A stretch of DNA of 32,293 nt. Source: an uncultured Muribaculaceae bacterium (lineage in GTDB: Bacteria; Bacteroidota; Bacteroidia; Bacteroidales; Muribaculaceae). The notes beneath the pieces were generated by a model that worked only from the letters and a program-made list of their open reading frames with translations, made no database searches and had not been told where the DNA came from. Shown here one piece after another: positions 19,022 to 32,137 of this stretch. Location: contig CANRCT010000036.1 of assembly GCA_947629175.1 (NCBI GenBank), forward strand, positions 1 to 32,293. Reading direction: 5' to 3'. The first letter of the stretch is position 1. The number at the start of each line of letters is the position of its first letter. The position numbers and the translations under genes are program-made.

Positions 19022-19723
19022 TCAGATCTTGCGGGCCGCTTCGTCCGACACTACTGATCCGTCAAAGAGGTTTATCGTGCGGCGGGCGTATGACGCGTCG
19101 CGCTGGGAGTGGGTGACCATGACGATAGTGGTCCCTTCACGGTTGAGCGATGTCAGCAGCTCCATCACCTCGCGTCCGTTGGTGGAGTCGAGGTTGCCTG
19201 TGGGCTCGTCGGCGAGAAGTATCACGGGATTCCCTACGATAGCTCTCGCTATGGCCACTCGCTGCTGCTGTCCGCCCGAGAGCTGCAGCGGGTAATGGCG
19301 CGAGCGGTGCGACAGATTGAGACGGTCGAGTATCTCCCGAACCCGGCGCGCGCGCTCCTTGCGGGGCACGCCGAGGTAGGTCAGAGGCAACTCGACGTTT
19401 TCGGCCACCGTGAGCTCGTCTATGAGATTGAAGCTTTGGAACACGAATCCGATGCGTCCCTTGCGCACCGACGTGCGCTGGCTCTCCTTAAGCGCGCCCA
19501 TCTCCTTGCCGTCGAGCTGATAGGAGCCCGACGAAGGGTTGTCGAGCAGACCGATGATGTTGAGGAGGGTTGACTTGCCGCATCCCGACGGGCCCATGAT
19601 CGCCACGAAGTCGCCTTTGTCGACGTCGATGTTCACATTGTTGAGAGCCTGGGTCTCCACTTCCGATGTACGGAACACTTTGTTGAGATTCTTTATCTGT
19701 ATCATGTCGTTTTGTTTTTTCAT
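19022..19723 (-). CDS. ABC transporter ATPase, MacB/LolD type
   Basis: This is the nucleotide-binding subunit partnering the permease encoded immediately upstream. The 233-residue protein has Walker A GPSGCGKS (44-51), Q-loop FQSFN (95-99), signature LSGGQQQR (148-155), Walker B LLADEPTGNLDS (169-180) and H-loop VTHSQ near 208. The MacB/LolD/FtsE subfamily drives mechanotransmission across the envelope rather than classical import. The start overlaps the permease stop by one base (TAATG); a start at the Met of MIQIKNL (19705) is equally plausible. The operon is read from a sigma-54-type promoter. Confidence 0.93.
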   Translation of the reverse strand: MKKQNDMIQIKNLNKVFRTSEVETQALNNVNIDVDKGDFVAIMGPSGCGKSTLLNIIGLLDNPSSGSYQLDGKEMGALKESQRTSVRKGRIGFVFQSFNLIDELTVAENVELPLTYLGVPRKERARRVREILDRLNLSHRSRHYPLQLSGGQQQRVAIARAIVGNPVILLADEPTGNLDSTNGREVMELLTSLNREGTTIVMVTHSQRDASYARRTINLFDGSVVSDEAARKI

Positions 19724-22035
19724 TATTCTGAACGTAAGGATTTCGACGGGTTCTCGTTGGCTGTGCGCAGCGTCATGACTACGGATGCGAGAGTTATCAC
19801 CACAAGAGTGATCAGTCCCGACAGGGCATACATGGCTATGATCGAGGGCGCCTGTACGCTGAACTGTTCAAGCCAGTAGCGTCCGGCGAGCCATGCGAGC
19901 ACCGAACCTGTGATGACGGCCGGGACGGCCACTTTCATCACCGAGCGGCAGATGACCTCGATCACTTCGGCTGTCGATGCACCGTTGACTTTCCGTATGG
20001 CGATCTCACGGCTGCGGCGGTACATTTCGTCGCGCAGATATCCGAATAGGCCTATGAGGCTTATCAGAAGCAGTATTACGGCTCCGATCATGATCATCGT
20101 GCGGAGCACCTCCACGCTGTGGTAGGTCTGTCGGTAATTGCTTCCCAGACTGACGCAGGAATACGTCGTAGCTCCTTCCCTCAACTGTTCCTCCTCGGCA
20201 AGGATGCGGTTGAAATTCTCGTCAAACGGTTTCTTGAGTTTCAGGAAGAATCTTGTTCCCCAGCCTACTTTGGCCATGTAGGGTTGTTGCGGGTCGTATA
20301 AATTTCCGGTGATGAAGTCCTTGATGACGCCTGTGACAGTCACGTTATTTTCGCCACCGTCATTGAACTGTTTGCCTATGGCCTCACTGTCAGTCCAGTC
20401 CATCAGCCGCGCGAACTCCTGATTGATCACGGCTTCCGTGCCGTCGGTCGCTTCAGGATAGCGTCCGTGAAGAAGGCGGAATCCCATTACGTCGGCAAAT
20501 GATTTGTCGGCCCAGTAATCATAGCGTGTAGAGAACATCGGCGAACCATGTTCGTCGCGGATGAATTGTCCGCTGTATCCCTCTCCCGGAGGAGTGGACC
20601 CGATCGCTGCCTTTTCGACATACGGCAGTGAGGAATACATCTTCAGCAGACTCTCACGGTGTTCTTTGCCCTCATTGGAGCGGATGATGCACACTAAGTC
20701 GTCGGGCTCATATCCGGGATCGAAATCCATGACATACCGGTATTGGGTAGCCACAAGAGCCAGAAGTCCCGCCATCAGTGATGCTCCGGCAAACTCTGCG
20801 AAGAGCAATGTGTGTTTCCATCCGTGTTTCTTCTCGACAAAGCGCCGGAATACCTGGCTGACCGGTATGTTGCTGAATACCACCGACGGTATGAGAGCGG
20901 CTATCGCGAACACGAGTATCACCACTCCTGCCACCACCCACAGACGGTCGGTCGATATGTAGGCGGCGAAGTTGTCATATATGCTCTCCTGGGCGAAGCG
21001 CCGCGCTATGTAGAAACATAATGCAGCGAATACCAGGCCTGCCAGTATTATTATTACCGTCTCGATGGCAAACATGCCGAAGATCGTTCCGCGCCCGGCC
21101 CCTGCACATTTGTGGACCCCTATGGCCTTGGCGCGTCGGGTGAGTGCTGACAGCGACAGCAATACATAGTTGAGAGCTGTCACGAAGAGGATGAGCGTGG
21201 CGAGAAACGACAGTGTCCATGTGGCCACTCTGACCGATTCCTGGCCGCGATGTATGTCGCGGAGCGGCACGGCGATGGCTTTCAGAGAGAAGTCGTCGGT
21301 AGGCGGGACATTCGCTTCGATCACTTCCATTATCTTCCGGTTGAGGTCGTCGATGTCGGTGCCCTCTTTCACGAGCAGGTAGTCAAACCATGAGTCGCCC
21401 CCTTTCCATCCAAGCCACATTCCCCAATGGGTGATCATAGTCGGGAGCGATACAATGAAATCTGTGTTCAACGTGCTCTCCTCGCCCCAGTCGCGGTAGA
21501 CGCCGCAGATCTGCAGCGGTATCTCCTCCCATCCTGTCAGCATCTTCCCGACAGGCGATTCGTCGCCGTAATATTTTCTTGCCATCCGGTCGCTGATATA
21601 CATTTTCCCGAGCTGGGCGAGACCGTCGGGATCGCCTTCGATGATTTCAACGCCGAACGTTTTGAAAAACAGCGAGTCGGCCATCATCACTGTTCCGGGA
21701 AGCGTCTCGTTGTCGCGTGATATGTTGTCGGATGATCTGCGGGTCATGACGGCGCCCTCTATCAGGTCGCCTCCGAGAGCGGTGTATATGCCTTCTGCCA
21801 GTTTCCCGACACACTGCTCCTGCCATTCCAGTTCGTTGCCTCCGAGCTTGAACTGCATTTTCAGCTGATAGATGCGGTCGTAGTCGCGGAAACATGTATC
21901 GATAAGATTGTCATAGGCCACTCTCGCGAAGAGAAAGCAGCTCATTGCAAGCCCCAGCCCGATAGAAAGGATCTTCACGATTGTGGATCCACGGGCATGC
22001 ATCAGTGTGCGGATTGCATATGGATTTTTTTGCAT
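19723..22035 (-). CDS. FtsX/MacB-type ABC transporter permease
   Basis: This 770-residue inner-membrane protein is a fused double-FtsX permease. I see eight hydrophobic segments in two 1+3 sets: near residues 18-40, 283-310, 325-350 and 372-398, then 422-446, 655-682, 705-730 and 735-760. Large periplasmic domains of the MacB_PCD type sit after the first segment of each half. Such permeases occur widely in Bacteroidota, often in multiples; their cargo (peptides, lipoproteins, antimicrobials) is rarely known and cannot be inferred here. It is the first gene of the two-gene operon, and a two-component system diverges from it. Confidence 0.9.
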   Translation of the reverse strand: MQKNPYAIRTLMHARGSTIVKILSIGLGLAMSCFLFARVAYDNLIDTCFRDYDRIYQLKMQFKLGGNELEWQEQCVGKLAEGIYTALGGDLIEGAVMTRRSSDNISRDNETLPGTVMMADSLFFKTFGVEIIEGDPDGLAQLGKMYISDRMARKYYGDESPVGKMLTGWEEIPLQICGVYRDWGEESTLNTDFIVSLPTMITHWGMWLGWKGGDSWFDYLLVKEGTDIDDLNRKIMEVIEANVPPTDDFSLKAIAVPLRDIHRGQESVRVATWTLSFLATLILFVTALNYVLLSLSALTRRAKAIGVHKCAGAGRGTIFGMFAIETVIIILAGLVFAALCFYIARRFAQESIYDNFAAYISTDRLWVVAGVVILVFAIAALIPSVVFSNIPVSQVFRRFVEKKHGWKHTLLFAEFAGASLMAGLLALVATQYRYVMDFDPGYEPDDLVCIIRSNEGKEHRESLLKMYSSLPYVEKAAIGSTPPGEGYSGQFIRDEHGSPMFSTRYDYWADKSFADVMGFRLLHGRYPEATDGTEAVINQEFARLMDWTDSEAIGKQFNDGGENNVTVTGVIKDFITGNLYDPQQPYMAKVGWGTRFFLKLKKPFDENFNRILAEEEQLREGATTYSCVSLGSNYRQTYHSVEVLRTMIMIGAVILLLISLIGLFGYLRDEMYRRSREIAIRKVNGASTAEVIEVICRSVMKVAVPAVITGSVLAWLAGRYWLEQFSVQAPSIIAMYALSGLITLVVITLASVVMTLRTANENPSKSLRSE

Positions 22036-22075
22036 GATTGTGAAAAAAATTAGTTGGTTTTTGCCTTATAATGTC

Positions 22076-22090
22076 GCATTAACCGTGCCA
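22076..22090 (-). promoter_or_regulatory. Sigma-54 (-24/-12) promoter of the ABC transporter operon
   Basis: The minus strand reads TGGCACGGTTAATGC, matching the RpoN consensus TGGCACG-N4-TTGC except for A in place of the first T of the -12 element. The invariant GG and GC have the required 10-bp separation. Transcription would begin near 22064, about 29 nt before the permease start. I find no housekeeping promoter for this operon. Confidence 0.75.
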
Positions 22091-22117
22091 GAAATGCAAT
22101 GCACTGGCAGTCAGAAA

Positions 22118-22133
22118 TGTCGTAAGTCCGACA
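22118..22133. promoter_or_regulatory. Inverted repeat TGTCG-N6-CGACA, possible activator site
   Basis: A perfect 5-bp inverted repeat lies between the sigma-54 promoter and the tandem 18-bp repeats. It shares outer TGT...ACA ends with those repeats but not their inner sequence, so relation to the same protein is uncertain. Confidence 0.35.
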
Positions 22134-22143
22134 GATCGGGGTA

Positions 22144-22182
22144 GTGTAAAATATCTTGACAATGGTGTAAAATAATTTGACA
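22144..22182. promoter_or_regulatory. Two 18-bp direct repeats, candidate enhancer sites
   Basis: GTGTAAAATATCTTGACA (22144-22161) and GTGTAAAATAATTTGACA (22165-22182) agree at 16 of 18 positions and are spaced 21 bp apart, two helical turns, so they lie on one face of the DNA. Each has TGT-N11-ACA ends, like a dyad site for an NtrC/NifA-type dimer. They are centred about 90 and 110 bp upstream of the predicted sigma-54 transcription start, a normal enhancer distance. Confidence 0.65.
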
Positions 22183-22234
22183 GACAGGCGCTGCTGCATC
22201 GGATCGCTGCGGCGGCCTGAATGTCACGTCGGGA

Positions 22235-22264
22235 TTGCCGTAACCGTGAAAATGTCTAATTTTG
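22235..22264 (+). promoter_or_regulatory. Promoter of the response-regulator gene
   Basis: TTG (22235-22237), a 19-bp spacer and TAATTTTG (22257-22264) match the Bacteroidota consensus. The predicted start falls within a few bases of the ATG at 22270, so the message may be leaderless or nearly so. Confidence 0.6.
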
Positions 22265-22269
22265 CAGTG

Positions 22270-23601
22270 ATGAAGTCTAACACGCATATACTTGTGGTCG
22301 ACGACAACCGCGGCGTGCTCGCGGCTCTCGATCTTCTGCTCCGGCGTCATTTCGGACAGGTGACTCTTCTGGCCAATCCTTCCGAGATTATATCGGCAGT
22401 GCAGTCGGGGCATCCCGATGCGGTGCTGCTCGATATGAATTTCACATCATCGGTCAACAACGGCAACGAGGGACTCTACTGGCTCGGACGGGTGCTGGCC
22501 GTCAGTCCGCATCTTCCGGTTGTGCTGATGACTGCGTTTGCCGATATACCGCTTGCTATCAAAGGCATCAAGGCCGGAGCAGTGGATTTCGTACAGAAGC
22601 CGTGGGATAACGACCGGCTCGTGGAGATATTGAGAAATGCCGCTTCGAAATCAGGGAAAAGCAGGGCTGTGACACCGGCTGAGACCATGTATTGGGGCGA
22701 GTCAGCCGAAATGTCGCGTCTGCGTGAACTCGTTGAAAAGGTCGCGGCTACGGATGCCACGGTGCTGATTACAGGTGAGAACGGCACCGGCAAGGAGGTG
22801 CTCGCCGAGGAGCTCCACAGGCTCTCGGGCCGGGGCGACCGCAGGATGCTGAAGGTCGATATGGGCGCCGTCAGCGAGACGTTGTTTGAGAGCGAGCTGT
22901 TCGGACACCGCAAGGGCGCTTTCACGGGAGCTGTTTCCGACCGTAAGGGAAAGCTGGAGGAGGCGTCGGGCAGCTCGCTGTTTATGGACGAGATCGGCAA
23001 TCTGCCCATGCATCTTCAGGCCAAACTTCTCTCGGCGCTGCAAAACCGACAGGTGACGGCTCTCGGCTCAAACCATCCGGTAGCGTTTGATATAAGGCTG
23101 ATCTGCGCCACCAACCGCGATATTGATGCGATGGTGTCGGAGGGGACATTCAGAGAGGATTTGCTTTACCGTATAAATACAATACGTCTTCATCTTCCGC
23201 CCCTGAGGCAGCGTAAGGATGATATAGCTGTGCTTGCCGGGCGGTTCGCGTCGGAATTCGGCATGAGATACCGCGGTACGGAGATATCTTTGGGCGAGGA
23301 TGCAGTTACCGCTCTTGAGGAGTATGCATGGCCCGGCAATATCCGCGAACTGAGGCATGCGGTGGAAAAGGCTGTGATAGTGGGATCATCAGACAAGCTG
23401 TCGAAAGCCGATTTCTCGCTTACGCCCCACGCAGCTGCAGGCCATGAGATCAGTCAGGCTGCCGTGACGATAGAGGATATGGAGAGGCAGATGATAGCAG
23501 GCGCCATAGAGTCGTGCGGCGGCAATATGAGCGCTGCGGCCCAGCGGCTCGGCATAACGCGCCAGACACTCTACAACAAAATGAAGCGTTACGGCATATG
23601 A
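22270..23601 (+). CDS. NtrC-type sigma-54-dependent response regulator
   Basis: This 443-residue activator has three domains. The receiver (about 1-125) has acidic pair D11/D12, phosphoacceptor D55, T88 and K110. The AAA+ domain (about 140-375) has Walker A GENGTGKE (169-176), the sigma-54-contacting loop GAFTGA (216-221) and Walker B LFMDEI (237-242). A C-terminal Fis-type HTH (about 403-441) ends in AQRLGITRQTLYNKMKRYGI. The intact GAFTGA loop means it should activate RpoN promoters. The frame opens further upstream, but the Met at 22270 begins the receiver, and the promoter sits just before it. Its stop overlaps the kinase start by four bases (ATGA). The nearest sigma-54 promoter is that of the divergent ABC operon. 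Confidence 0.94.
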   Translation: MKSNTHILVVDDNRGVLAALDLLLRRHFGQVTLLANPSEIISAVQSGHPDAVLLDMNFTSSVNNGNEGLYWLGRVLAVSPHLPVVLMTAFADIPLAIKGIKAGAVDFVQKPWDNDRLVEILRNAASKSGKSRAVTPAETMYWGESAEMSRLRELVEKVAATDATVLITGENGTGKEVLAEELHRLSGRGDRRMLKVDMGAVSETLFESELFGHRKGAFTGAVSDRKGKLEEASGSSLFMDEIGNLPMHLQAKLLSALQNRQVTALGSNHPVAFDIRLICATNRDIDAMVSEGTFREDLLYRINTIRLHLPPLRQRKDDIAVLAGRFASEFGMRYRGTEISLGEDAVTALEEYAWPGNIRELRHAVEKAVIVGSSDKLSKADFSLTPHAAAGHEISQAAVTIEDMERQMIAGAIESCGGNMSAAAQRLGITRQTLYNKMKRYGI

Positions 23602-24872
23602 GAAATCCCTGGGTGATTCTTACGCTTGTCGTTCTTATGTCGGGCCTGACAGGGGTCCTGCTGACGTCGGGAGAATGGCTGTTCGGCTTCATCTCGGCCG
23701 CGTTGCTGGCCTGGTGCCTGAGTCGTGCCGCGGCAGTCATGAGGCGCGAGAAGAGGGCCGTAGGCCTCTTGTTGGAATCGTTGCGTAATGACGACTATTC
23801 CAGACGCCTGACTGACACCGGGGCTGATACGGCCGGAAAGCTCCACGAGATCTCCTCGATATTGAGAAAGATCAGGAAAAACGCTGTGGAAAAAGACCTG
23901 TTGTACGCCACAATCCTCAGACATATTGAGTCGGGAGTGCTTCTTATGGATTCGCGGGGATACGTTCTGATGGCCAACGGAAAATTCCTTGAGCTCCTCG
24001 GCATGGATGTGATTACACATATAGATCGTCTGAGTGAAAGGGCACCTGCGATAGCCGACCGCATAATGGGTCTGGCCTCCGGCGGCGAGTGCCGCACTGA
24101 GGCTGTCGAGGATCCTTGTGGCCACAGGGTGTTTTATATCCATGCCAGTGTCATAGAAGTGGGCGGCAAAAGTCTGAAGGCGGTGGTTATTAATGATATA
24201 AGCCGGGAAATCGAGCGAAACGAGACTGAATCATGGATCAAACTGACTCGCGTGCTCGTGCATGAGATAAACAATTCGCTCACTCCCATAGTATCTATTG
24301 CCGATATGCTTAAAGAAGGGAGTGACTCGGCGGAAGCCGTCAGAGGATTGTCGGCTATAAGCCGTATATGCGGTGACATTAAGGAGTTTGTCGGAGGCGT
24401 AAGATCTTTCTCGCACATTGCCGAACCGAGGATGAGCCTTGTCGAATTGCGTCCGCTTCTGGAGCAGGTGATTCAGTCGTGCCGTGGAGCGGGGAAGGCG
24501 GATATCTGTCTTGAATGCGACAGTGAGCTCATGGCATGGACTGACCCGTCGCTGTTGTCGCGTGCTGTTGGCAATGTGGCCCATAACGCCCTTCAGGCAG
24601 TGGAATCGGTCAGACAGCCCCGGGTGATGATCAAAGCCGAGGCATTGACGGATGATACGGTGGTGATAGAAGTGTCAAACAACGGACCGCATATTCCCGA
24701 GAGTATATCCGGTGATATTTTCGTTCCTTTTTTTACCACTCGTCCCGGCGGACAGGGTATCGGCCTCGCATTGAGCAGGCGTATTATGATCGCTCTTGAA
24801 GGGAATCTGTCGCTTGAGCCTTATTCGTCACCTGATGATGAGTTTACGACCTTCCGCTTTGAGATCCGCTGA
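23598..24872 (+). CDS. Membrane-bound sensor histidine kinase, NtrB/NtrY-like
   Basis: This 424-residue kinase is the evident partner of the preceding response regulator. Two adjacent membrane segments (about 5-23 and 26-44) are separated by only a few residues, so there is almost no periplasmic sensor. A linker, a PAS-like domain (about 103-205), the phosphoacceptor H222 in LVHEINNSLTP, and an ATPase domain with N-box NVAHNALQAV (326-335), NNG at 361-363 in place of the usual DNG of the G1 box, and FVPFFTTRPGGQGIGLALS (375-393) follow. The signal is thus probably sensed in the membrane or cytoplasm. The last 52 bp overlap the 3' end of the convergent glycosyltransferase gene. Confidence 0.92.
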   Translation: MRNPWVILTLVVLMSGLTGVLLTSGEWLFGFISAALLAWCLSRAAAVMRREKRAVGLLLESLRNDDYSRRLTDTGADTAGKLHEISSILRKIRKNAVEKDLLYATILRHIESGVLLMDSRGYVLMANGKFLELLGMDVITHIDRLSERAPAIADRIMGLASGGECRTEAVEDPCGHRVFYIHASVIEVGGKSLKAVVINDISREIERNETESWIKLTRVLVHEINNSLTPIVSIADMLKEGSDSAEAVRGLSAISRICGDIKEFVGGVRSFSHIAEPRMSLVELRPLLEQVIQSCRGAGKADICLECDSELMAWTDPSLLSRAVGNVAHNALQAVESVRQPRVMIKAEALTDDTVVIEVSNNGPHIPESISGDIFVPFFTTRPGGQGIGLALSRRIMIALEGNLSLEPYSSPDDEFTTFRFEIR

Positions 24873-26236: not shown

Positions 26237-26659
26237 ATGTTGTCAGCAGTATCCTCCATAACCAAAATGATTATCAGTTCGGATCTGCGTCGCTCTGCCG
26301 TGTGGATCGTTTCGGGCATACTGATGATATGTGGCTGCCTGCAGTTTCATCACCATGACGACTGCGGACATGTGTGCATGCACATTGTCTGTTCAGCTGA
26401 TGGAAATCAGGATGATAACCATGATCAGACATCAGAACCCGACAATTGTTCGCTTCATTTGCCATCGGTCGTCTATCAGAAACGCATAGATAGCACTCTG
26501 GCGGCTTATGTCGGCATTATAGCCGGTTTTCTTGTTCCGGAGGTACGTTTGCCGCTGCCGGCTCTGACGTATCTTCGTTTGTCGTGGAGGCCGTCAGGTA
26601 CGCTATGTTGCGATAAAATCATTCAGAATATTAGCTTTAGAGCGCCTCCTTGCGCTTGA
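26237..26659 (+). CDS. Small His/Cys-rich membrane-anchored protein of the metal-efflux operon
   Basis: This 140-residue protein of unknown function has one strong hydrophobic segment (about 21-36), then a metal-ligand-rich stretch HHHDDCGHVCMH (38-49), more His, Asp and Cys to residue 74, a second weaker hydrophobic part (about 88-104), a CC pair (124-125) and the ending FRAPPCA. I recall similar small proteins, with His/Cys clusters and RAPP-like endings, ahead of RND metal pumps in Bacteroidota, possibly the DUF6769 group; that identification is from memory. It is the first gene after a clear promoter and 55 bp upstream of the adaptor gene. A periplasmic metal-binding or sensing role is inference. 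The start could also be the Met at residue 11. Confidence 0.75.
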   Translation: MLSAVSSITKMIISSDLRRSAVWIVSGILMICGCLQFHHHDDCGHVCMHIVCSADGNQDDNHDQTSEPDNCSLHLPSVVYQKRIDSTLAAYVGIIAGFLVPEVRLPLPALTYLRLSWRPSGTLCCDKIIQNISFRAPPCA

Positions 26660-26714
26660 GTGTGTCATAATCTTTGTGATGTGTAAAATCTGTTAAGCTA
26701 ATAACTGGTCCGAT

Positions 26715-27848
26715 ATGAATTTTCGTAAATATAATATAGTAATACCCTGCCTGACAGCTATTGTAGTGGCTTCATGCGGGGATAAAAAGCACTCTGAATC
26801 AGAGAATGGGTCTCATGCTGACGAAGAGCATGCCGATGAAATAGTGATCCATCCTGAAGAAGCCGAAAAATTCGGCATCAAAACAACTACAATCAATCCG
26901 TCGGCGTTTCACAACGTCATCCCCGCCAGCGGTTCGGTCGATTATTCTCCTGAAAGTAGCGTGACTATAGGGAGTCCGGTTGCCGGACGTCTGGAACTGG
27001 CTACTGGATTATCCGTAGGATCATCAGTCAGAGCCGGTCAGACAATAGCCGACATACGCGCCGACGGTATCAGCGGCGGCAATGTGGATGCAGCCGCCAA
27101 GGCACGTCTTGATGCTGCCAAGCGTGAGCTTGACCGTATCACTCCCCTGCATGCCGACGGCATTGTCACCACCCGCGATCTGAATGCGGCGCGTCAGGCC
27201 TACCTGGAAGCTAAGGCCGCCTATTCGCCCGCTGCGGCTTCCGGCCGTGTATCATCTCCGATCGCCGGAGTGATCGCTGCCCTGCCGGCGGCCAACAACG
27301 AGATAGTATCTGTGGGGACCCCGATAGCCACAGTGGTCAGGCGGGGACGTCTGACATTGCGCGCGGATGTCCCGGAAAAGTACTACTCTGAATTGTCAGG
27401 AGTTACTTCATGCCACATTCTTACTCCCGGCACCGACCGATGGATCTATCTTGATGAGCTCGACGGCCGCAAGGAAGGGATCGTATCGGGCAGTCAGAGT
27501 GACGGGCGTCAGGGATATGTCACTGTGATATTCTCGTTCGTCAATGACGGTTCGGTCAGCCCCGGTTCATTTGCCGAGGTCAATCTGCTGTCAGGCACAA
27601 GAGAGGGCGTCATCGCCGTGCCTGCCGGAGCTATCACCGAACAGCAGGGGCAGACGTTTGTATATAAGCGTCTGGATGAGCATGGTTATGAAAAAGTGCC
27701 GGTAGTATGCGGCCTGACCGACGGAAAGCTTACAGAGATAAAAAGCGGACTTCAGCCTGGCGATGAAGTGGTGTCTGAAGGCACTGTATTCGTAAAACTG
27801 GCGGAAACGAAGGGAAATGCTCCAGAAGGGCACTCGCATAACCATTAA
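26715..27848 (+). CDS. RND efflux periplasmic adaptor lipoprotein, CusB/CzcB type
   Basis: This membrane-fusion protein bridges the inner-membrane RND pump and the outer-membrane channel. The 377-residue precursor has a lipoprotein signal with VAS-C (lipidated C21), then a His/Asp/Glu-rich segment (26-49) likely to bind metal. It continues with a barrel-sandwich hybrid (about 65-100 and 185-215) split by a short helical hairpin (about 120-175), a beta-barrel and a membrane-proximal domain to about 365, and a second His cluster ending in GHSHNH. Two terminal His-rich tails favour a divalent metal substrate. The pump gene starts 12 bp downstream. Confidence 0.92.
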   Translation: MNFRKYNIVIPCLTAIVVASCGDKKHSESENGSHADEEHADEIVIHPEEAEKFGIKTTTINPSAFHNVIPASGSVDYSPESSVTIGSPVAGRLELATGLSVGSSVRAGQTIADIRADGISGGNVDAAAKARLDAAKRELDRITPLHADGIVTTRDLNAARQAYLEAKAAYSPAAASGRVSSPIAGVIAALPAANNEIVSVGTPIATVVRRGRLTLRADVPEKYYSELSGVTSCHILTPGTDRWIYLDELDGRKEGIVSGSQSDGRQGYVTVIFSFVNDGSVSPGSFAEVNLLSGTREGVIAVPAGAITEQQGQTFVYKRLDEHGYEKVPVVCGLTDGKLTEIKSGLQPGDEVVSEGTVFVKLAETKGNAPEGHSHNH

Positions 27849-27860
27849 TTCGATCGCGAA

Positions 27861-30800
27861 ATGCTCAACAGGATATTAAAAATATCTCTCTCCAACAGGG
27901 CAGTCACCCTCATAATAGCCGGGCTGCTTCTGATATGGGGATGCATCACAATGCTCCGCACGGATGTAGACATCTTCCCCGATCTAAACGCTCCGACCGT
28001 GGTGGTGATGACCGAGGCGCCCGGGATGGCACCGGAGGAAGTGGAAAAAACCGTCACATTCCCTATAGAGACTGCGCTTAACGGCGCTACCGGTGTACGA
28101 CGCGTCAGATCTTCGTCATCTACAGGTTTCTCGATTGTATGGGTGGAGTTTGACTGGGATTCCGACGTATACAAATGCCGGCAGACTGTCGGGGAAAAAC
28201 TTTCGGCAGTCGCATCTCAACTCCCCTCCTCTGTCGGCGCCCCGACACTTGGCCCGCAGTCGTCGATTCTGGGTGAAATGCTTATAATCGGGCTTACGAG
28301 CGATTCTACTTCGATGATGCAGCTGCGGTCGATCGCCGACCGCATTATCACTCCCCGTCTGCTTTCGTTGCAGGGCGTGTCGCAGGTATCAGTCATAGGC
28401 GGCGATGTCAAGGAATACCAGATATTGCTGTCGCCTGAGAGGATGCGTCATCACGGTGTCAGTCTTGACAATGTGATGGAGGCCGTGGAATCATTCAACG
28501 ACAATGCCTCCGGCGGCATACTTTATGATTATGGCAACGAGTATCTGATCAAGGGTGATATCACTTCAGTCAAAGCCGACGAGATGGGGCTGACTGCTGT
28601 GGCTACGGCCTCCGGGCGGCATGTGACCCTGGCTGATATTGCCGAGGTAAAACTCGGGCCGCAGACGCCGAGACTCGGAGCCGCTTCGGTAAAAGCTGAG
28701 CCTGCGGTGCTGATTACAGTGACCAAGCAGCCTCATCAGGGGTCAAATGATCTGACGCGCAATATACTTGCCGACCTTGACGAGATTGCATTGACTCTAC
28801 CTTCCGACATACATATTTCGACGGATATTTTCAGGCAGAGCGACTTTATCGACGCATCGATATCCAATCTTCAGACATCGCTGTTCGAGGGAGCTATATT
28901 CGTCATCGTGGTGCTGTTTTTCTTCCTGATGAACATTCGCACCACGCTCATATCGCTTGTGGCGCTCCCTCTTTCGATAATAGTGACGCTTCTTATCCTT
29001 GGCAAATTCGGTTTCACCATCAACACCATGAGTCTGGGCGGTATCGCCATAGCCATCGGATCGCTTGTTGACGATGCCATAGTCGACGTAGAAAATGTCT
29101 ACAGGAGGCTCAAGGAGAATCACCGTCTACCGTCGGCAGAAAGATTATCGGTCGTCAGGGTCGTATTCGATGCTTCACGTGAAGTCCGCCTTCCGATTCT
29201 CAACTCATCGCTCATAATCATAGCAAGCTTTCTGCCTCTGTTTTTCCTTTCAGGAATAGAGGGACGCCTGCTCAAACCTCTCGGCATATCTTTCATTGTG
29301 GCCCTGACCGCTTCGACTGTAGTGGCCCTGACGGTGACCCCCGTGCTGTGCAGCTATCTTCTTGGATCAGACAAGGCCGCTAAGGCGCTTGACAGCGAAC
29401 CGTGGCTGACCCGTAAAATGCGCGGCGCTTACCGACGCATGCTCGACTGGTCGTTCAGAAACAAGAGGCCGGTATTGCTCACTACTGCCCTGCTTTTCGC
29501 AGTGGCTCTCGGGTTATTCTTCACTCTCGGCCGCAGTTTCCTTCCGCCCTTCAATGAAGGATCACTCACCATCAATATAAGCGCACTGCCGGGAATATCG
29601 CTTGAGGAGAGCGACAAAGTCGGACGGGAAGCTGAGCGCATCATTCTGGAAACGCCCGAAATTATCACTACGGCCCGCAAGACCGGCCGTGCCGAGCTCG
29701 ACGAGCATTCGTTCGGTGCCAATGTGTCGGAAATCGAGGCGCCATACCGGCTCGACGGGCGTTCGCGCCGGGATATGGTCAGCGAGCTACGCGCCAATCT
29801 GTCGGCTTTGCCCGGAGTCAACATAGAGATCGGTCAGCCGATAAGCCACCGTATAGATGCGATGCTTTCAGGCACGGAGGCTCAGATAGCCATAAAGATC
29901 TTCGGCGATAATCTTGAGACACTGCATCGCATTGCCCTGGAGGTGGGCTCCGATATAAAGAAGATCCCCGGAGTGGTGGATGTCAATGTCGAACAGTCGA
30001 CGGGCCGCCCCCAGATAGATATCCGTCCGAAGCGTGTCATGATGGCAAAATACGGTGTCACGAATGCCGCTCTTGCCCGTGCGATCAATGTGATGATAGC
30101 TGGTCAGCCCGTATCGCAGGTTTATGAAGGCAATATGCCGTATGATGTTACGGTCAAGGCTTCCGACAGATCTCGGTCGAGCATCAGCAACATGTCGGAA
30201 ATCACCGTGGAGAGCGATCAGGGGCCTATACCGCTCAGCTATGTGGCCGACATCGTGTCGACGACCGGTCCGAATACGGTCAATCGCGAGAATGTAAGCC
30301 GCCGGACGGTTGTATCGGCTAATGTAGATGGTCGTGATCTCCGGAGCGTCATCAATGAGATAAAGCAGACACTGGGCAAGGACATAGAGCTACCCGAAGG
30401 CTACCATATAGCTTATGGCGGACAGTTTGAAAGCGAAGCGTCGGCTTCGCGGACATTGATGCTCGCGTCGGCAGCTGCCCTGCTTGTGATATTTCTACTG
30501 TTGTATCAGGAATACAAGAATTTCAAGCAGCCTCTCATCATACTGATAAATATGCCTCTGGCAATGATAGGCGGCATACTGATACTCCGCCTGACTTCAG
30601 GCGAGCTGAACATCCCTGCCATTATCGGTTTTATAGCTTTGCTGGGTATCGCCACCCGCAACGGGATGCTGCTTATTTCTCGTTACAATGCTCTTAAAGC
30701 TAATGGTGAGGGACTTATCCAACGGATATATCATGGTTCGGTCGATCGTCTTAACCCGATAATAATGACAGCCCTGACTTCTGCGCTCGCACTGATTCCG

Positions 30801-30950
30801 CTGGCAGTCAGAGGATCCGAACCCGGCAATGAGATACAGTCGCCTATGGCTGTGGTCATTCTGGGAGGATTGCTGACATCGACAGTGCTGAATCTCATTG
30901 TTGTGCCAATAATTTATAGTATATCAGAAACATACAAAAACGACAAATGA
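27861..30950 (+). CDS. Heavy-metal efflux RND pump, CzcA/CusA family
   Basis: This 1029-residue inner-membrane antiporter exports metal cations using the proton gradient. It has the RND layout: a first membrane helix (about 14-31), a periplasmic porter domain, a membrane bundle starting near 340, and a repeat of this pattern in the second half. The heavy-metal family opening TDVDIFPDLNAPTV (34-47) and the TM4 proton-relay segment with D404, D405, D409 and E411 (SLVDDAIVDVENVYRRL) are clear. The pair DD differs from the single-Asp form I recall for CusA and resembles divalent-cation pumps, but the metal (Zn, Co, Cd, Ni, Cu) cannot be fixed by eye. Its stop overlaps the next start by four bases (ATGA). 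Confidence 0.95.
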   Translation: MLNRILKISLSNRAVTLIIAGLLLIWGCITMLRTDVDIFPDLNAPTVVVMTEAPGMAPEEVEKTVTFPIETALNGATGVRRVRSSSSTGFSIVWVEFDWDSDVYKCRQTVGEKLSAVASQLPSSVGAPTLGPQSSILGEMLIIGLTSDSTSMMQLRSIADRIITPRLLSLQGVSQVSVIGGDVKEYQILLSPERMRHHGVSLDNVMEAVESFNDNASGGILYDYGNEYLIKGDITSVKADEMGLTAVATASGRHVTLADIAEVKLGPQTPRLGAASVKAEPAVLITVTKQPHQGSNDLTRNILADLDEIALTLPSDIHISTDIFRQSDFIDASISNLQTSLFEGAIFVIVVLFFFLMNIRTTLISLVALPLSIIVTLLILGKFGFTINTMSLGGIAIAIGSLVDDAIVDVENVYRRLKENHRLPSAERLSVVRVVFDASREVRLPILNSSLIIIASFLPLFFLSGIEGRLLKPLGISFIVALTASTVVALTVTPVLCSYLLGSDKAAKALDSEPWLTRKMRGAYRRMLDWSFRNKRPVLLTTALLFAVALGLFFTLGRSFLPPFNEGSLTINISALPGISLEESDKVGREAERIILETPEIITTARKTGRAELDEHSFGANVSEIEAPYRLDGRSRRDMVSELRANLSALPGVNIEIGQPISHRIDAMLSGTEAQIAIKIFGDNLETLHRIALEVGSDIKKIPGVVDVNVEQSTGRPQIDIRPKRVMMAKYGVTNAALARAINVMIAGQPVSQVYEGNMPYDVTVKASDRSRSSISNMSEITVESDQGPIPLSYVADIVSTTGPNTVNRENVSRRTVVSANVDGRDLRSVINEIKQTLGKDIELPEGYHIAYGGQFESEASASRTLMLASAAALLVIFLLLYQEYKNFKQPLIILINMPLAMIGGILILRLTSGELNIPAIIGFIALLGIATRNGMLLISRYNALKANGEGLIQRIYHGSVDRLNPIIMTALTSALALIPLAVRGSEPGNEIQSPMAVVILGGLLTSTVLNLIVVPIIYSISETYKNDK

Positions 30951-32137
30951 AATCTAAAGCATTGTTCCTGGCCATCCTTGTGCCGGCTATGGTGTCGGCA
31001 CAGAACGCTTTCGACTTTAATCGGGCGGCGTATGCGATGGCGGCGGGAAGCTATGTTCTCGCATCCGATTCGCTGTCGCTTGCGGCCGGTATCGAGGAAC
31101 TGAAAGGAGCCAATAATCTGCAGGATCCGGAGATCGAATTCGGCTATCTCTGGGGAGAAAAGCAGACAGGCAACAAATGGAACGTCAGCGTAAGTCAGGG
31201 ATTTGACTGGCCGGGTGCTTATTCTGCCAGAGCCAAGGGTATCCGGGCTGCCGAACAGGTCATCGGTCTGACACGGCAGGCCAACTTGTTGGCAAGGATG
31301 CTCGAAATAAAGCTGGCCATGATAGATGTGGTCTATTCCTCAAAGAGTCTTAAGCTTACCCAAGAGATGACCGACACGATCGCTCTCATGTGTGAGGCAG
31401 CACACAAGGCTTTGGAAAAAGGAGAGCTGACACGTCTTGACATGAACAAGATGGAGATCGTGCATATAGGCATGGAGGAGGAGTTAAGGGCGGCTTTGAC
31501 AGATTATGATGACAAAGTGGCGACTCTCACTGTGCTTAACAACGGTAAGGACTGTTCGTCACTCATTGAACAGCTGACAAGCTATCCGGAGGAGATGATC
31601 CTGCCCCTCGACACATATCTCAGTCAGTTGTCGGAAAAGGATCCTTCGATAAAGGCCCGGCTGATGCAGGTGGATGCCGATGAGAAGATGATCAAGGCAC
31701 AGCAGATGATGTCATATCCCGCTTTCTCTCTCGGTTACGCTTATGAGAACGAGGGCGAGGAACGCTGGCATGGCGTAACGGTAGGTCTTACTTTGCCGCT
31801 TTTTTCCAACAGGCACGTGACGACCAAAAACCGTCTGGCGGCAATGCAAAGCCGGCTTCAAGCCGAAAATGCAGGCAATGAGGCCAGGGTCAGGATTGCC
31901 AACGACCGACGCAAGGCTATAGACCTGTATGAGGATTTTACCAAGTATGACAAGGTGATCAACGGCGACGACAACATAGAATTGCTTAAGAAGGCTTATC
32001 GCGGAGGTCAGATGACTTTTATCGATTATCTTACGGAGGTGAACTTTTTCCTTGATGCCCGCCGGACTTTCCTGCAGACGGAATATCTCTATCATCTCGC
32101 GCTGGCACGCCTCAACCGTTACTCCATGACCATGTAG
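30947..32137 (+). CDS. TolC-family outer-membrane channel of the metal pump, CzcC/CusC type
   Basis: This outer-membrane efflux protein completes the tripartite pump. The 396-residue precursor has a signal peptide (about 1-19, ending MVSAQ) and two repeats of long amphipathic helices, including SQGFDWPGAYSARAKG in the first half and VGLTLPLFSNRH in the second, both typical of CzcC-like proteins. No lipobox is present. It is short for the family (usually about 410-450), but N- and C-terminal features are present, so truncation is unlikely. The start overlaps the pump stop by four bases, indicating coupling. A large hairpin follows. Confidence 0.92.
   Translation: MKSKALFLAILVPAMVSAQNAFDFNRAAYAMAAGSYVLASDSLSLAAGIEELKGANNLQDPEIEFGYLWGEKQTGNKWNVSVSQGFDWPGAYSARAKGIRAAEQVIGLTRQANLLARMLEIKLAMIDVVYSSKSLKLTQEMTDTIALMCEAAHKALEKGELTRLDMNKMEIVHIGMEEELRAALTDYDDKVATLTVLNNGKDCSSLIEQLTSYPEEMILPLDTYLSQLSEKDPSIKARLMQVDADEKMIKAQQMMSYPAFSLGYAYENEGEERWHGVTVGLTLPLFSNRHVTTKNRLAAMQSRLQAENAGNEARVRIANDRRKAIDLYEDFTKYDKVINGDDNIELLKKAYRGGQMTFIDYLTEVNFFLDARRTFLQTEYLYHLALARLNRYSMTM

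Follow-up and report, generated by a model that had tools for sequence, protein, structure and literature searches.

The 234 bases (22036-22269) between an ABC permease gene, which starts at 22035 on the minus strand, and the ATG of a divergent NtrC-type response regulator gene at 22270 carry a -24/-12 element together with a pair of palindromic sites, at a mutual distance that is nearly fixed in relatives. Based on the sequence, these parts very probably form a local circuit in which a kinase acts through an NtrC-type activator on an RpoN promoter controlling an ABC exporter. The window, i.e. the whole stretch of 32,293 nucleotides analysed here, is contig C36 of the 2.94 Mb genome of an uncultured Muribaculaceae bacterium, and among named bacteria, Paramuribaculum has the closest relatives of its regulator. 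In the proposed circuit, the kinase would phosphorylate the response regulator, whose own gene would be expressed from a TAnnTTTG promoter. Two dimers of the regulator, separated by two helical turns, would then occupy the palindromes, the AAA+ ring would assemble at these sites (-89/-110) and contact the RpoN polymerase on the -24/-12 element over a short DNA loop, and the permease-ATPase operon would be transcribed. The coordinates of the features are given in Table 1.

Table 1. Genes, predicted regulatory elements and further exact -24/-12 strings of the genome
Feature	Position	Strand	Basis or context
ABC permease, 770 aa	19723..22035	-	Pfam, PDB profile search, model and fold search
ABC ATPase, operon gene 2 after the permease	19022..19723	-	Pfam, NCBIfam
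NtrC-type response regulator, probable activator (REC, sigma-54 AAA+, Fis HTH)	22270..23601	+	Pfam, motifs
Sensor histidine kinase, H box at 222	23598..24872	+	Pfam, hydropathy
Proximal probable activator site TGTAAAATATCTTGACA, centre -89	22145-22161	.	Sequence, positional conservation
Distal probable activator site TGTAAAATAATTTGACA, centre -110	22166-22182	.	Sequence, positional conservation
-24/-12 element of the permease operon, TGGCACGGTTAATGC	22090-22076	-	Sequence; conserved in relatives
Predicted +1 of the permease operon	22064	-	Placed 12 nt downstream of the -12 C, by inference from the -24/-12 element
-7 box of the regulator, TAATTTTG, primary-sigma type	22256..22263	+	Box placement after the available part of PMC9723704
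Exact -24/-12 string L010	G000:C5:87958		Precedes a SlyD-like isomerase, below its cut-off
Exact -24/-12 string L011	C7:45257		Precedes GroEL
Exact -24/-12 string L012	C9:18912		Precedes Lon
Exact -24/-12 string L016	C13:30390		Precedes ClpB

The regulator has the features of an NtrC-type protein, namely a receiver with its aspartate at the expected place, a PF00158 domain and a Fis HTH. The initial annotation had described a divergent activator with an intact GAFTGA loop, and this motif is found at residue 216, together with Walker A, Walker B and an arginine-finger stretch. The protein stays below the curated cut-off in each of 25 of 73 NCBIfam models, the NtrC, ZraR and AtoC families being among the matches. 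The genome holds one rpoN match (E 5.6e-43) and seven PF00158 matches, three of them at 217-232 bits, this regulator included, and the rest at 58 bits at most. A longer reading frame of the regulator, from a TTG at 22177, would overlap the distal site; it was rejected, as the ATG at 22270 aligns with the starts in relatives.

The permease contains two MacB_PCD and two FtsX stretches (Pfam), and a profile search of the PDB matched it to MacB. Its model (pLDDT 81.9) gave fold matches to YbbAP, MacB, BceAB and LolCDE in the PDB, which are not told apart. Among NCBIfam models ADOP came first and DarB second, DarB with 84 of 700 bits and thus below its curated cut-off; the best match of the ATPase, DarD, is likewise below its cut-off with 304.7 of 375 bits. 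The MacB_PCD/FtsX permease is shared with MacAB-TolC and with the darobactin exporter DarBCD. In contrast to these systems, the permease-ATPase pair is not flanked on its strand by an HlyD or OEP gene, and the HlyD and OEP genes of the window belong to a separate RND operon (26715-32137). In the region near the kinase (26237-32137), a 140-aa ORF is followed by this RND efflux operon (HlyD, AcrB-type, OEP; Pfam); the same gene order also begins in Paramuribaculum intestinale DSM 100749 (L134), which has a regulator ortholog of 78% identity, and a search of the window found no exact -24/-12 match at this region.

The sigma-54 promoter consensus is TGGCAC-N5-TTGC, from which TGGCACGGTTAATGC departs once (A for T). 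As proposed in the initial annotation, the GG-to-GC spacing on the minus strand is correct, the distance being the 12 nt that a sigma-54 promoter requires, and its estimate of about 29 nt plus initiation distance before the permease gene agrees with the predicted leader of 29 nt from the +1 to the ATG at 22035. The string is not enriched in the genome (20 exact matches vs 24 for the reversed pattern) or in the window (four matches with at most one mismatch vs a shuffle mean of 5.75). By itself it could be chance, and it is conservation, not string frequency, that carries the evidence. Among the 20 exact strings of the genome, four lie outside ORFs of at least 100 aa (L010, L011, L012 and the permease's own), and for a fifth (L016) the +1 lies 24 nt before the start codon, under an ORF on the opposite strand. 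The 383-nt gap between L011 and GroEL presumably holds groES, which was not called. GroES/EL, Lon and ClpB have mapped sigma-54-type promoters in Flavobacterium psychrophilum (PMC9723704, in its available part), in support of reading these strings as RpoN promoters, and those before the SlyD-like isomerase, GroEL, Lon and ClpB probably make up an RpoN stress regulon. The partial selection of F. psychrophilum sigma-54 promoters in that source includes no exporter of such a kind (PMC9723704).

To assess conservation, 155 loci of regulator relatives were reduced to 125 non-redundant ones by filters on redundancy, length and upstream sequence; the relatives L042 and L043-L063 lie outside the 125, and L181 and L184 were dropped for missing upstream sequence. 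In the orthologous loci L035 and L036, whose regulators are 78 and 77% identical to that of the window, the -24/-12 element lies within 2 nt of its position in the window, and the palindromes stand at -127/-106 and -125/-104 from the regulator ATG, compared with -125/-104 in the window. In the 16 loci with a divergent permease, window included, the permease strand carries TGGCAY in 15 and TGGCGC in one; the conservation in orthologous loci on which the initial annotation had staked its promoter is thus observed, and so is a fixed distance to the palindromes. Within 400 nt, TTGGCAY occurs on the divergent strand in 48/125 loci and on the regulator strand in 4/125, and 100 dinucleotide shuffles gave a mean of 9.8 and a maximum of 18 against the 48 observed. 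In the aligned set, 54% of the sequences retain the -12 C.

This strand preference also bears on the reading that the permease operon is transcribed mainly from a primary-sigma promoter, the -24/-12 element being minor or a relic. Such a promoter could be seen in TAATTTTT, which has one mismatch and lies 9 nt before the permease ATG, but an exact TAnnTTTG, the element that the initial annotation had named as evidence against its own proposal, is absent from the permease strand of the intergenic region, and TTGGCAY favours the divergent strand. We consider this reading very improbable and retain the RpoN promoter. The regulator itself would be served by a primary-sigma box, TAATTTTG, which ends 6 nt before its ATG and predicts a leader of about 2 nt; the gap between TAnnTTTG and the ATG is 4-7 nt in 25/125 relatives, and leaderless mRNAs amount to 5.5% in F. 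psychrophilum (PMC9723704, available part).

The initial annotation had noted enhancer-like tandem repeats in the intergenic region. They can now be sharpened to two sites on the plus strand, TGTAAAATATCTTGACA and TGTAAAATAATTTGACA, each a TGT-N11-ACA palindrome; they are 21 bp apart, and their centres fall at -89 and -110 relative to the predicted +1. TGTCGTAAGTCCGACA (from 22118) was considered as a third palindrome and rejected, being absent in the near relatives L035 and L036. The genome (2.94 Mb) has one place with a palindrome pair at a spacer of 3-6, and the reversed control also gives one; further palindromes of the genome (C39, C57, C72) are single, none of them paired. The composite of the pair and a -24 box at the right distance is found once in this genome and not at all in the control, so the permease operon is possibly its single target there.

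Upstream of the regulator relatives, the palindrome pair is present in 36/125 loci, compared with a mean of 0.02 and a maximum of one in 100 shuffles. TGGCAY with a palindrome 60-130 bp upstream was found in 50/125 loci, and the distance is 87-91 in 42 of these 50, a count for which the site nearest 89 was chosen where several fitted; the counts of all pairs and of the open-gap search below are free of this choice. Among all 130 TTGGCAY/palindrome pairs within 500 nt, 35 are at 85-92 bp and 28 at 107-114 bp, whereas the regulator strand has five pairs within 500 nt, none at either distance. A helical-phase comb at 99-104 and 120-124 bp was considered and rejected, as -12 boxes reading TTGGCA had been counted as -24 boxes; such boxes account for at least a good part of the peaks near 101 and 123. 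In L157, L173, L162 and other loci, the -12 box often reads TTGGCA, giving tandem TTGGCA units every 10-12 bp upstream of the regulator, which could form overlapping promoters.

The combination of TGGCAY and an exact TGT-N11-ACA at 60-130 bp is missing from the 400 nt upstream of the regulator in 75/125 loci, in many of which the upstream neighbour runs in the direction of the regulator. In the B. fragilis locus L212, OEP, HlyD and FtsX genes are divergent from the regulator and the -24/-12 string TTGGCACACTCTTTGCC is present, with no exact TGT-N11-ACA. When the whole of the 125 regulator loci was searched (860,944 bp), TGGCAY with a palindrome 85-93 bp upstream was found at 54 sites, the reversed control giving none. 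The divergent slot holds 42 of the 54, and the adjacent gene encodes an FtsX protein in 22 cases and an OEP in 24, while for eight there is none or it is not callable. The OEP labels were made with a Pfam-confirmed OEP seed, the RND-type OEP of the window having given no outer membrane proteins as a seed. In a first labelling of neighbours, FtsX was found in 32/48 loci (47 and the window).

The location of the palindromes between both genes leaves room for a different reading, in which they belong to another DNA-binding protein or to the regulator's own expression, and the -24/-12 element is served by an activator encoded on C48 or C7. The regulator's own promoter could indeed be affected from these sites, the genome encodes two other high-scoring activators, and the recognition helices are nearly identical among 29 relatives, making cross-talk possible. 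Against it, the distance between the sites and the -24/-12 element is fixed, and seven of the 46 sites before FtsX or OEP genes (L144, L135, L067, L068, L155, L128 and L106, with a weak distal site in L067 and L106) lie outside the upstream slot of the regulator. This reading is therefore judged unlikely, though somewhat less so than the primary-sigma one, and, going by the positional conservation, the palindrome pair would be bound by the regulator encoded beside it. The closed circuit of membrane kinase, activator, RpoN promoter and transporter drawn in the initial annotation gains support from this conservation and would still be read as a prediction.

The composite was also searched as DNA alone, with no protein input (palindrome pair, gap of 52-57, TGGCAY), in whole genomes. 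It was found in 41/393 genomes of the order Bacteroidales, at 76 sites by row count and up to nine per genome, and in 9/395 genomes of a phylum sample, seven of them outside the order; the reversed control gave none in either set. The next gene was examined at 48 of the 86 distinct composite sites, and it encodes FtsX in 23, OEP in nine and HlyD in two (34/48), the others being unlabelled (eight, of which three resemble ABC ATPases by eye) or not callable (six). The 87-92 spread of the DNA-found loci holds by construction, the gap having been preset to 52-57. When the gap was opened to 40-70 and the box set to TTGGCAY, 178 genomes gave 24 matches in 12 genomes, compared with one in the reversed control, and the span is 97-100 bp in 21/24, the others being 90, 110 and 111; the window, which reads CTGGCAC, is outside this set. 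The spacing between the sites and the -24/-12 element is thus nearly rigid.

A relative of the regulator lies within about 1.5 kb in only 18/48 of the DNA-found loci; where none is near, one activator may serve several operons or may sit further away. Genome G500 has nine composite sites, three of them within 12 kb of one contig, and is perhaps an expanded exporter regulon. In L244 and L261, the composite precedes small secreted-looking proteins (142 and 134 aa) that carry no label and are possible cargo or accessory proteins.

The kinase of the window has two N-terminal hydrophobic helices separated by a loop of four residues, according to hydropathy, and a weak PAS match at residues 102-138. 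A kinase was called beside the regulator in 109/125 loci, and hydropathy of the first 110 residues gives two hydrophobic windows in 95 of these kinases, one in 12 and three in two. Their N-terminal loops have 0-20 residues or there is a single helix, except in L095 and L084, whose second window lies in the PAS region. When everything N-terminal to the H box is considered, 62/109 kinases have a further window after residue 75 at a KD of at least 1.2, and 11/109 at a KD of at least 1.6. These further windows lie around residues 84-140, overlapping the place of the PAS match in the window's kinase, and they are read as PAS strands, a reading that hydropathy cannot prove. By hydropathy alone, the 109 kinases give no sign of a periplasmic sensing domain, a point that was missing from the initial annotation. 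The kinases of L102, L104, L105, L106, L120, L125 and L128 are only 281-290 aa long; they have a single hydrophobic helix and, the H box lying at 83-88, no room for a PAS domain.

In the Bce antimicrobial peptide modules of Firmicutes, it is the ABC transporter that activates the kinase, which lacks a sensing domain (PMC10314905, available part), and a 2011 description called Bce-type systems Firmicutes-specific (PMC3023708, available part). The loci studied here resemble these modules in that a kinase with no extracytoplasmic sensing domain seen by hydropathy, in the 109 called, stands beside the ABC transporter that it would control (PMC10314905). The two differ in that the output is sigma-54 here, the permease is duplicated and MacB-like, and many relatives have OEP and HlyD genes. 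BceB is one permease with one large extracellular domain, unlike the two MacB_PCD and two FtsX stretches of the present permease, seen both with Pfam and in the model. Since no periplasmic domain is seen in the 109 kinases by hydropathy, sensing may be done by the transporter, as in the Bce modules; an input through cytoplasmic PAS sensing or membrane stress is also possible. One might speculate, tentatively and with less than even confidence, that Bacteroidota evolved the transporter-as-sensor apart from Firmicutes: an FtsX/MacB exporter would report its work to a sensor-less kinase, a sigma-54 activator would act at a fixed short distance, the exporter would be self-induced on demand, and the same DNA signature would mark such modules across the class.

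Control of FtsX-like permeases (COG0577) by sigma-54 in Bacteroidia was predicted in 2025 and termed first evidence (PMC12316311, available part), in a regulon that shares the gene family, the class of bacteria and the kind of promoter with the permease described here. The promoter class is thus already predicted and not new. That paper states that activator specificity is not to be had for every organism it studied; the terms 'UAS' and 'upstream activat' are absent from the main text as available, and in the available part the COG0577 permeases stand without assigned activator or site, whereas candidate sites are given here (PMC12316311). No paper on activator sites for the COG0577/FtsX permease family was found in the literature searched, which lies mostly within open journals, subscription journals being mostly outside it. 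As far as these searches go, what is new is that the sites are paired and nearly fixed in their geometry, that a link to FtsX, OEP and HlyD genes emerges from DNA only, and that the kinases have no visible outside sensor.

NtrC, ZraR and AtoC act from paired upstream sites, and sigma-54 activators are known for working at variable distances. The regulator and its sites resemble these systems in the receiver, sigma-54 AAA+ and Fis HTH domains and in the paired palindromic sites upstream, and differ from them in a position that is nearly fixed (-89/-110) across many families and in the target, an FtsX-type ABC exporter. Compared with activators acting at variable distances, such a fixed site position is unusual. 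With the composite as a DNA signature, exporters that are probably under signal control can be located in Bacteroidales by sequence alone, and candidate activator sites are supplied for a sigma-54 class that had been predicted without them. The signature also draws attention to kinases that are unlikely to receive their input through a periplasmic ligand-binding domain, and the question of what these kinases sense becomes testable.
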